From Chloroflexota bacterium (lineage in GTDB: Bacteria; Chloroflexota; Dehalococcoidia; DSTF01; RBG-16-68-14), in NCBI GenBank assembly GCA_022573935.1, contig JACZTE010000097.1, forward strand, positions 1 to 5,170: a DNA stretch of 5,170 nt, given 5' to 3'. Every line of letters begins with the position of its first letter. Position 1 is the stretch's first letter. The position numbers and the translations under genes are program-made. Under the pieces are notes generated by a model. It had not been told where the DNA came from. It made no database searches and was given only the letters and a program-made list of their open reading frames with translations. Positions 3,309 through 5,074 of the stretch are shown in pieces.

Positions 3309-3343
3309 GCAGCGCAGCTCGAACAGCAGCCAGAACATGACGA

Positions 3344-3367
3344 GGGGCCGCCCGCAAGGGCGGCCCC
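3344..3367 (+). terminator. Hairpin behind groEL, possible terminator or 3' end stabiliser
   Basis: GGGGCCGCCC (3344-3353) and GGGCGGCCCC (3358-3367) form a perfect 10-bp stem closed by a GCAA (GNRA-type) tetraloop, 35 nt after the groEL stop. There is no T-run after the stem (TGCGCATCG follows), so it is not a canonical intrinsic terminator. It may act as a T-less terminator, a pause, or an RNA 3'-end stabiliser. Confidence 0.55.
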
Positions 3368-3485: not shown

Positions 3486-3514
3486 TTGACAGGCCAGGGC
3501 AACTGTAGTAACAT
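3486..3514 (+). promoter_or_regulatory. Sigma-A-type promoter of the c-di-AMP riboswitch unit
   Basis: A perfect TTGACA (3486-3491) is followed after exactly 17 bp by TAACAT (3509-3514; 4 of 6 matches). The predicted start near 3521 lies just before the riboswitch aptamer, which strongly supports the pair as the promoter of this leader RNA. Confidence 0.75.
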
Positions 3515-3525
3515 AGCTTCCCGAA

Positions 3526-3672
3526 AGGACAATTACATACCCGCCTGCCGAATCCCTGAGGAGGGGAACGGGGGAACCACGAGAACTGGGGTGAATTCCC
3601 TTCGATGCGTCGGAGGAATAGGCCAGCTCCTTCAGGCCGAACCCGTCAGCTAACCTCGTAGGCATCTGGAGG
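3526..3672 (+). promoter_or_regulatory. Cyclic di-AMP riboswitch (ydaO/yuaA type) aptamer
   Basis: The leader carries the conserved blocks of the ydaO-yuaA RNA in the right order. They are a 5' block CCGCCTGCCGAATCCC (3541-3556), the purine-rich GAGGAGGGGAAC (3559-3570), GGGGTGAATTCCC (3588-3600), and the highly diagnostic 3' block CCGAACCCGTCAGCTAACC continuing into TCGTAGGC (3638-3663). GCCT (3543-3546) can pair with AGGC (3660-3663) to close the junction. This RNA class binds two molecules of c-di-AMP and normally switches genes off when ligand is high. It lies between a good promoter and an intrinsic terminator on the same strand. Edges are approximate; the family assignment is by recognised conserved sequence, not by a covariance search. 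Confidence 0.9.
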
Positions 3673-3689
3673 AGGCGTCGACCAGCGTG

Positions 3690-3726
3690 AGCGGGACGAG
3701 GGTCGCGCCCTCGCCCTGCTATTTTT
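3690..3726 (+). terminator. Intrinsic terminator = riboswitch expression platform
   Basis: AGCGGGACGAGGG (3690-3702) pairs with CCCTCGCCCTGCT (3708-3720) around loop TCGCG. This gives a 13-position stem with one G-U pair and one A/C mismatch, followed by A and a run of five Ts (3722-3726). It starts 27 nt after the conserved aptamer core and lies before the downstream coding region, so it is the likely off-switch. Two upstream segments can compete for its arms: GGCG-CGACC (3674-3683, one bulged T) with GGTCGCGCC (3701-3709), and the aptamer's CCTCGT (3654-3659) with ACGAGG (3696-3701). Confidence 0.85.
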
Positions 3727-3818
3727 GTGCCTACAATTTGGTCGGCTTGGCCTGACTCCCCTAACCCGTTCCCAGCAATATTTTGTCGATCGCCAGATGG
3801 ACACAAGGAGGTGAATCC

Positions 3819-4337
3819 ATGCCGTGCGAGGTCGAGATACCGCAGCATTTGCGAACGGAGTCCCCGAATCGGGCCGCGGCTAAGCCTGCGAGCGCGCTAT
3901 CGGCTGGCCTGTCCAGCGGGCCGCTCAACGGGCTTTTGATCACCGCTGACCGTGCGTTGGCGCGCGCGTTTCGCCGAGAGCTGGGCCGATGCGCCGAATC
4001 TACGCTCCCCTTCGACGTGCGCGCGAACTTCGAGCAGGCGCTGACCGAGGCCGCAGACGCGTACCATTGGGTGGGCGTGGACTTGGACGGCGCCATCGCA
4101 CCGTCTGAAGCCGTGCGACTGGCCCGCTGCTCCTGGCCGGCCGCTCGTGTCGTCGTGCTGAGCGGCTGGTGGAGCGAACGCGATGTCTTCGCGCGGGACT
4201 TGGCCGATCTGGTGATCCACAAGCCTCTGCGCGCACCGGAGCTGCTCGCCTTTCTGCGCGTGCTGTCTGGCGCCCCGCAGCCGGATGCCGAGCGGGTCGG
4301 AGCGCAGAGCGAAACCGTCACCACCGCTACCGGCTAG
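3819..4337 (+). CDS. Stand-alone receiver-like (CheY-fold) protein, putative
   Basis: This 172-residue protein looks like a single response-regulator receiver domain with unstructured ends. After about 35 low-complexity residues come strand 1, GLLITAD (38-44, acidic Asp44), helix RALARAFRREL, and strand 3, WVGVD (84-88), where Asp88 is at the phosphoacceptor position. Strand 4, RVVVLS (110-115), ends in the Ser/Thr position, and strand 5, LVIHKP, holds the conserved Lys135-Pro136, followed by LRAPELLAFLRVL. The usual acidic pair after strand 1 is reduced to one Asp. No output domain follows, only an Ala/Gln/Thr-rich tail (152-172). The start is ATG at 3819, with a strong AAGGAGGTG (3805-3813); an in-frame TTG at 3783 lacks this. 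It is the only plus-strand gene after the c-di-AMP riboswitch and terminator, from which it is separated by 92 nt, and it faces pcm. Fold assignment is by pattern only. Confidence 0.8.
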   Translation: MPCEVEIPQHLRTESPNRAAAKPASALSAGLSSGPLNGLLITADRALARAFRRELGRCAESTLPFDVRANFEQALTEAADAYHWVGVDLDGAIAPSEAVRLARCSWPAARVVVLSGWWSERDVFARDLADLVIHKPLRAPELLAFLRVLSGAPQPDAERVGAQSETVTTATG

Positions 4338-4361: not shown

Positions 4362-4385
4362 AAGCGCGAGCCGGACTCGCAGCTT
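4362..4385. terminator. Weak hairpin between convergent genes
   Basis: AAGCGCGAG (4362-4370) pairs with CTCGC-GCTT (4376-4385, one bulged A) around loop CCGGA, in the 47-bp gap between the receiver-like gene and the pcm stop codon. No clear T-run follows on the plus strand, so a bidirectional terminator role is only possible, not shown. Confidence 0.3.
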
Positions 4386-5074
4386 CAGGCGACGGGCTGC
4401 TGCCCGTTTTGGCGATCTCCCCGGTCTGACCAGCCTCCGTCGGTCGAGATCAACGGCACGAAACGGCATTCGCCCATGCGCTCGGTCTTGATCCCCCGCT
4501 CCGACTTGGTCGTTCGCACCAACTGCTGAACGCGCCGGCCGCCCACCGGCACCACCAGCCGGCCTCCCATCGCCAACTGTTCGACGAGCGAAGACGGCAC
4601 GTCCGGTGCGCCGGCGGCCACGGTAATCGCGTCGTAGGGCGCCTCCGCGGGCCAGCCCAGCGCCTCGCCGGCGACGACGACGCGCACGTTGGCGTAGCCG
4701 AGCAGCTCCAGCCGCCTCCGCGCCGATGCCGCCAGTTCGGGCACTCGCTCCACGCTTACCACTTCGCGCGCCATGAGCGAGAGCAGCGCCGCCTGGTAGC
4801 CGGAGCCGGTGCCTACTTCCAGCACCTTCTCGTCGCCCTGCAGCAGCATCGCCTGCGTCATGATCGCCACCATGAGCGGCTGCGAGATCGTCTGGCCGTG
4901 GCCGATCGGCAGGGGCCGGTCCTCGTACGCGTGGCGTTGCAGCTCCGATGCCACGAAGCGTTCGCGTGGCACCCGGAAAAACGCGGCGCGGACGCGCTCG
5001 TCGCGCACCTCCGCGCGGAAGGCGCGTACCATGGCCTCTCGGGCCGCCTGGTAGTCTATGGGATCGATTGGCAT
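4385..5074 (-). CDS. pcm: Protein-L-isoaspartate O-methyltransferase
   Basis: Pcm uses S-adenosylmethionine to methylate the alpha-carboxyl of L-isoaspartyl residues in aged proteins, which starts their repair to L-aspartate. The 229-residue protein has the family hallmarks in order: VPRERFV (35-41), YEDRPLPIGHGQTISQP (50-66, substrate loop), the SAM motif VLEVGTGSGYQAALL (84-98), VVSVERVPELA (105-115, acidic residue at the end of strand 2), APYDAITVAAGAPDVP, and LAMGGRLVVPVGG followed by FVPLIS. The start is ATG at 5074, with GGAGGGG (5086-5080) upstream. Where most relatives have G-D-G before the LGW stretch, this protein reads A-G-E (135-137), a departure in the SAM-binding region. The tail after FVPLIS is short and Gln/Arg-rich. 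It is convergent with the receiver-like gene; no co-directional partner is visible in the window. Confidence 0.95.
   Translation of the reverse strand: MPIDPIDYQAAREAMVRAFRAEVRDERVRAAFFRVPRERFVASELQRHAYEDRPLPIGHGQTISQPLMVAIMTQAMLLQGDEKVLEVGTGSGYQAALLSLMAREVVSVERVPELAASARRRLELLGYANVRVVVAGEALGWPAEAPYDAITVAAGAPDVPSSLVEQLAMGGRLVVPVGGRRVQQLVRTTKSERGIKTERMGECRFVPLISTDGGWSDRGDRQNGQQPVA

Follow-up and report, generated by a model that had tools for sequence, protein, structure and literature searches.

The window, by which we mean the whole stretch of 5,170 nt analysed from a Chloroflexota bacterium (contig JACZTE010000097.1), carries on its plus strand one complete unit between groEL and the convergent pcm gene, composed of a promoter, an aptamer, a terminator, a ribosome-binding site and a gene for a protein of 172 amino acids (Table 1). 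The preliminary description of this DNA had listed these elements in series and had stated that the gene is the only one downstream of the riboswitch before the convergent gene; both observations were confirmed. A riboswitch serving groEL or pcm was ruled out, since groEL precedes the aptamer and pcm is convergent. Transcripts of the upstream groEL may also read through into the region of the 172-aa gene. Elsewhere in the window, an inverted repeat (TTAGCACTC-N9-GAGTGCTAA) lies before groES at positions 1262-1288 and is presumably a CIRCE element, the kind of element bound by HrcA. On the minus strand, a short frame before rnpA (862-1000) may, by reading, resemble ribosomal protein L34 (rpmH), and a strong GC hairpin with no U-tract was seen by eye 3' of groEL (3343-3366).

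Table 1. Features of the riboswitch-gene unit and its convergent neighbour, in coordinates of the window.
Feature	Position	Strand	Remarks
Sigma-70-type promoter	3486..3514	+	-35 TTGACA 3486-3491, 17-nt spacer, -10 TAACAT 3509-3514
c-di-AMP (ydaO/yuaA) riboswitch aptamer, RF00379	3536..3679	+	92.1 bits, E 2e-21, full length
Loop strand CTCCTTCA	3627..3634	+	complementary to 3667-3674: 8 pairs, one G-U
3' tail partner TGGAGGAG of the loop strand 3627-3634	3667..3674	+	RNAalifold consensus helix
Candidate antiterminator strand CCTCGT, aptamer 3' strand	3654..3659	+	complementary to ACGAGG 3696-3701, read directly
Intrinsic terminator	3690..3726	+	stem 3690-3720, U-tract 3722-3726
Ribosome-binding site (Shine-Dalgarno) AAGGAGGTG	3805..3813	+	similar in aligned leaders
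172-aa stand-alone pseudo-receiver gene	3819..4337	+	172 codons
Protein-L-isoaspartate O-methyltransferase (pcm)	4385..5074	-	convergent neighbour, conserved in 5/5 related loci

The identity of the leader was examined with the Rfam covariance model RF00379, whose curated gathering score is 38 bits. The match in the window clearly exceeds this cut-off and covers model positions 1-134, with 50 of the 56 strongly conserved positions identical, so the c-di-AMP riboswitch proposed in the preliminary description was recovered by the covariance search. Members of this class feature a long-range pairing from a loop to the 3' tail. In the window, the pairing between the loop strand and the 3' tail is part of a 12-pair helix in the RNAalifold consensus, each pair being standard in 5-6 of 6 leaders, and we take it to be the loop-to-3'-tail pseudoknot of the aptamer. 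The whole-leader consensus mixes promoter DNA with leader and was used solely for this one helix. Judged from its sequence, the leader is probably a c-di-AMP OFF riboswitch; this direction is proposed because passages of PMC6488665 and PMC9960051 describe transcription termination upon c-di-AMP binding.

The 172-aa protein has 31 relatives at E <= 0.001, six of them 83-99 percent identical to the window protein, and the alignment of the 32 sequences contains 20 invariant columns, which rules out a chance reading frame. The query matched nothing in PHROGs, NCBIfam or Pfam, and no family, PF00072 included, reached the Pfam gathering score. When the 32 family members were compared with Pfam, one matched PF00072 (E 0.17) and four matched PF24896 Receiver_CRE1 (best E 0.011). 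The family profile recognised receivers weakly among the PDB sequences (best chain E 0.0068; KdpE 0.008-0.039). The structural model and its comparison gave a (beta-alpha)5 receiver fold, residues 1-33 and 154-172 being below pLDDT 50. Thus the receiver-like fold suggested earlier agrees with the structure and, weakly, with the PDB profile, and is not recognised by Pfam; the suggestion that the protein stands alone as a single domain was upheld. The call goes beyond fold resemblance, as D88, S115 and K135 fall at receiver positions in the alignment with KdpE, in agreement with the model.

The receiver domain of KdpE (PDB 1zh2, 4kny), which is among the best profile matches, has the same fold, with 27-29 percent identity in the structural alignment, but its acidic pair is intact. 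KdpE also has a DNA-binding domain. The likeness to KdpE gave no evidence here for a role of the 172-aa protein in K+ transport. In addition, four loci found in a wider search (L019, L024, L029 and L030, see below) encode short stand-alone proteins that carry the WSE...HKP motif of the core family (YKP in L024) and lack the riboswitch; three of the four gave no Pfam match at E 0.05. These proteins may represent a wider, undescribed group of pseudo-receivers.

Residues of the active site were counted over 36 sequences, namely the 31 relatives, the window protein and four members from genomes of the order, leaving out a gene split in genome G002; these sequences are not independent, several of them being near-identical to the window. 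D88 (the phospho-Asp position), K135, P136, H134, W118 and S119 are invariant (36/36), and S115 is present in 34, with Ala in the other two. The two Mg-binding acids were placed with the help of the ungapped alignment with KdpE and of the point at which strand 1 ends in the model. The first position is acidic in 2 sequences and the second (D or E) in 32; no sequence has both and two have neither, while the query itself has A43 and D44. The full five-residue receiver site (two acids, Asp, Ser/Thr, Lys) was therefore found in none of the 36 members. D90 occurs in 33/36. At the K-3 position of beta5 all members carry Val or Ile and none an aromatic residue, and at K+2 all carry Leu, Val or Ile. 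W117 (32/36) forms with the invariant W118 a tryptophan patch, which is a candidate surface for a partner.

According to the definition given in PMC12632262, a pseudo-receiver is a receiver domain without at least one of the five conserved residues. With Ala at the first acid in the query and the pair incomplete in 36/36, the 172-aa protein is a pseudo-receiver in this sense. In the sections of that review dealing with these proteins, pseudo-receivers share with our family the (beta-alpha)5 fold, the loss of active-site residues, a non-aromatic K-3 and an aliphatic K+2. The first and second acids are non-acidic in about 20 and 80 percent of them, respectively, whereas in our set this holds for 34/36 and 4/36; the query differs furthermore in that no Pfam model matches it. 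According to the same sections, CheY moves towards active conformations when K+2 is Ala, Ile, Leu or Val, and pseudo-receivers carry these residues more often; a few pseudo-receivers that are constitutively active appear to be controlled through their synthesis or availability. This account, together with the leader, suggests that the 172-aa protein would be regulated by its amount. The words riboswitch and c-di-AMP are absent from the main text of the review.

The preliminary description had linked the riboswitch to phosphotransfer signalling. As written, this link did not find support, given the acid pair missing from every member and the Val or Ile fixed at K-3; since the target is a pseudo-receiver, any such link is uncertain, and regulation through abundance is the likelier option. 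Phosphorylation may still occur, with D88 and K135 invariant and S115 nearly so. The protein could then function as a single-domain receiver whose Mg site is reduced to D44, D88 and perhaps D90. A histidine kinase or acetyl phosphate would phosphorylate D88, and the riboswitch would do no more than set the ceiling of a phosphotransfer pathway. The conservation of Asp, Lys, Ser, D90 and the second acid fits such a protein, as does the relevant part of PMC12632262, where direct contact with the metal is ascribed to the second acid and only a water-mediated one to the first. However, a residue pair that is never complete, a K-3 that is never aromatic, the two members without both acids and the two with Ala for Ser are against it, and no kinase was found among the neighbouring ORFs that were annotated, which are part of the neighbours. 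We consider a working receiver rather unlikely, and an adaptor that acts through its amount remains our preferred reading.

As for the mode of action of the leader, the terminator has a folding energy of -22.5 kcal/mol (z -2.33; 4 of 200 shuffles equally good), and its hairpin is also kept in G002. The six-base complementarity between the aptamer 3' strand and the 5' arm of the terminator makes a plausible candidate antiterminator. In minimum-energy folds of the whole leader, which are unable to draw pseudoknots, neither the aptamer as a unit nor this antiterminator appears. When the leader is folded up to 3818, the terminator persists and the ribosome-binding site (3807-3813) is paired with the aptamer 5' strand (3542-3549). 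This pairing could reflect translational control instead of termination, a second level of control, or a folding artefact; because of it we slightly lowered our confidence in termination control of an adaptor and slightly raised that in a translational mechanism. In a set of 60 leaders, made up of the 59 of the order and that of the window, 34 have a terminator-like hairpin no more than 220 nt from the aptamer, compared with 10 to 21 in ten shuffled sets, and 32 have one no more than 80 nt away, compared with 3 to 11. This excess supports termination as a common mode in the order. Among the six leaders of the core genes, those of the window and of the five genomes with the core gene, a terminator was detected in three, namely that of the window, that of G002 and, with TTCATT as a weak tract, that of G001, and none was detected in G003, G183 and G004; in G003 a strong hairpin folds without a U-tract. 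For the window, termination thus has good support, and for the other core leaders it is a possibility.

These leaders without a detectable terminator, and the pairing of the ribosome-binding site, would suit a leader that acts on translation or via Rho, with the hairpin being incidental. There are precedents in the pertinent passages of PMC9960051: the c-di-AMP riboswitch of C. glutamicum is translational and that of S. coelicolor lacks a canonical terminator. Nevertheless, the hairpin and U-tract of the window are canonical, are kept in a relative and persist in the very fold that pairs the ribosome-binding site. Moreover, locking this site to the free aptamer strand would make the ligand an activator of expression, contrary to the usual OFF direction. 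For these reasons we hold this mechanism to be improbable, and transcription termination is the mode that we favour for the window.

The preliminary description had proposed looking for the same riboswitch-gene pairing in related genomes. A pattern scan of an 84,980-species genome collection found four loci encoding relatives, all in Chloroflexi metagenome-assembled genomes. In the order, where 18 genomes were searched and all candidates scored, the core protein family is present in five (G001, G002, G003, G004 and G183), with weak matches in G172 and G194. RF00379 lies upstream on the same strand in all five core genomes, one of the aptamers being truncated: the scores are 82.6 (G001), 94.4 (G002), 82.7 (G003) and 79.7 bits (G183). 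The truncated one, in G004 (L004:3181-3280), reaches 25.8 bits, which falls short of the cut-off, and keeps the ends and the 3' tail. A different hairpin has taken the place of its middle, and the element may be a relic or else a c-di-AMP aptamer in shortened and possibly altered form. The start codon follows the end of the aptamer by 130-142 nt in every core genome and in the window, and the -35 TTGACA is invariant in 6/6 aligned leaders. That the riboswitch of the window is itself a relic and leaves the expression of the gene unaffected, as the truncated G004 element might hint, is scarcely credible, since the window and the four other relatives keep full aptamers (79.7-94.4 bits) at near-constant spacing despite a protein identity that falls, over the matched part, to 60-61 percent in G001 and G003.

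Regarding the neighbourhood, pcm is convergent downstream in the five core loci (66-94 percent identity), and in G002 a 202-aa frame without a Pfam match lies between the core gene and pcm (L002:286-891). Upstream there is a 3-hydroxyacyl-CoA dehydrogenase gene in G001 and G004 (by Pfam) and in G003 and G183 (by reading the DNA), where the window has groEL. A further search covered 294 genomes of the class, drawn from a larger group, with up to 12 candidates scored in each genome. It gave at least 17 matches in 14 genomes among these candidates. Six of them belong to the core family in its five genomes; the G002 gene accounts for two, as its pieces lie on separate contigs (L018, L028). The remaining 11 (L019-L027, L029, L030), which are weak and include ordinary response regulators as well as short WSE...KP proteins, showed no RF00379 in their loci of roughly 3 kb, so that no wider association of distant relatives with the riboswitch was found.

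c-di-AMP riboswitches are present in 18/18 genomes of the order, with 59 hits, 58 of them above the cut-off, and a diadenylate cyclase domain (PF02457) was found above cut-off in all five core genomes, which are those of the relatives and not the window's own. The frames behind the 59 riboswitches were clustered (loci L061-L118, from the order to which G001 belongs), and one member per cluster was annotated with Pfam. The clusters cover 48 of the 59 sites, leaving the others unassigned, and comprise a GT2-like membrane enzyme (12 sites), a GT20 trehalose-phosphate synthase with what we assume to be a related phosphatase (11), a 69-aa zinc-ribbon-like protein (11), for which the zinc-ribbon matches do not reach the curated cut-off, a protein of some 99-122 aa (5), the pseudo-receiver (5), a TreT-type trehalose synthase (2) and a cupredoxin-like protein (2). 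Given the trehalose-synthesis targets, the pseudo-receiver belongs to a c-di-AMP regulon with an osmolyte theme. At four loci (L067 in G001, L074 in G002, L077 in G004 and L084 in G241), the 69-aa gene is followed on the same strand by a second small zinc-finger-like ORF and then by a LuxR-type response regulator (annotated with Pfam in the G001 copy). A full LuxR-type response regulator may thus also be under c-di-AMP control in these four genomes.

In the portions of PMC7266159, PMC10117811 and PMC9960051 that treat ydaO targets, these are K+ and amino-acid transporters and proteins of osmotic shock and the cell wall, whereas here the target is a stand-alone pseudo-receiver. The ydaO/yuaA leader of B. 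thuringiensis kdpFABC, as presented in the excerpted part of PMC6488665, also has a full-length aptamer followed by an intrinsic terminator, located 143 bp upstream of the start codon, and the OFF logic is expected for both. A CheY-type regulator of osmotic adaptation, OsaB, is described for Streptomyces in PMC10117811, whose passages on it mention no riboswitch. A precedent in kind comes from c-di-GMP: in the pages of PMC12548384 devoted to it, the response-regulator operon cmrRST of C. difficile is controlled by a second-messenger riboswitch, so that receiver-domain proteins are the targets in both cases, and CmrT is discussed as possibly constitutively active. It differs in the messenger and riboswitch class, in its positive control, and in having OmpR-family regulators, where the window has a lone domain without an output domain. 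The survey of PMC3766115 includes ydaO-yuaA sites and five Chloroflexi genomes; the passages concerned do not name the ydaO targets of Chloroflexi. In the open-access full texts, judged mostly by title and opening of the abstract, we recognised no description of a c-di-AMP riboswitch with a receiver-like gene; Block 2010 and Nelson 2013 possibly list one. As far as searched, the pseudo-receiver represents a kind of target not previously described for this known riboswitch. In the cmr operon, cmrS encodes a kinase.

The explanation that we prefer, and consider somewhat probable, is that a c-di-AMP OFF switch sets the amount of a stand-alone adaptor that is probably independent of phosphorylation. 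The aptamer, terminator, gene, predicted fold, residue pattern and conserved pairing are seen at the level of sequence; the response to the ligand, the direction of the switch, the independence of phosphorylation and the binding of a partner are inferred. The RNA would start near 3521. At high c-di-AMP the aptamer would fold, the downstream hairpin would form and transcription would stop at 3722-3726. At low c-di-AMP the aptamer 3' strand would pair instead with the 5' arm of the terminator, the polymerase would read through and the 172-aa protein would be made. What this single-domain pseudo-receiver does would depend mainly on how much of it is present: it would be an adaptor that binds other proteins and is active as soon as it has been synthesised. 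Low c-di-AMP would turn it on together with other c-di-AMP-controlled genes, including those for trehalose synthesis.

A broader reading, which we offer tentatively and regard as possible, is that in one Chloroflexota clade a stand-alone pseudo-receiver is always active and receives its sole input from the c-di-AMP riboswitch, the RNA having taken over from the kinase. The messenger would set the amount and the protein would dock on a kinase, a polymerase or an enzyme, carrying the osmotic state onward. The small regulators behind the same riboswitch (the 69-aa zinc-ribbon-like protein, followed in four genomes by the LuxR-type response regulator) would, as part of this same tentative reading, place c-di-AMP above a cascade of regulators and not over transporters alone.

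The sequence suggests, then, that in a group of uncultured Chloroflexota, where the pairing of riboswitch and gene is conserved, the bacterial stress messenger c-di-AMP sets the amount of a small, stand-alone protein of signalling type. Small regulatory proteins would then join transporters and cell-wall enzymes in the c-di-AMP regulon. The switching on and off of bacterial pseudo-receivers is called a mystery in the text of PMC12632262 that addresses it. Here the regulatory element in view is an RNA switch that is well understood, which makes this pseudo-receiver a clean example of how abundance could serve as the signal.
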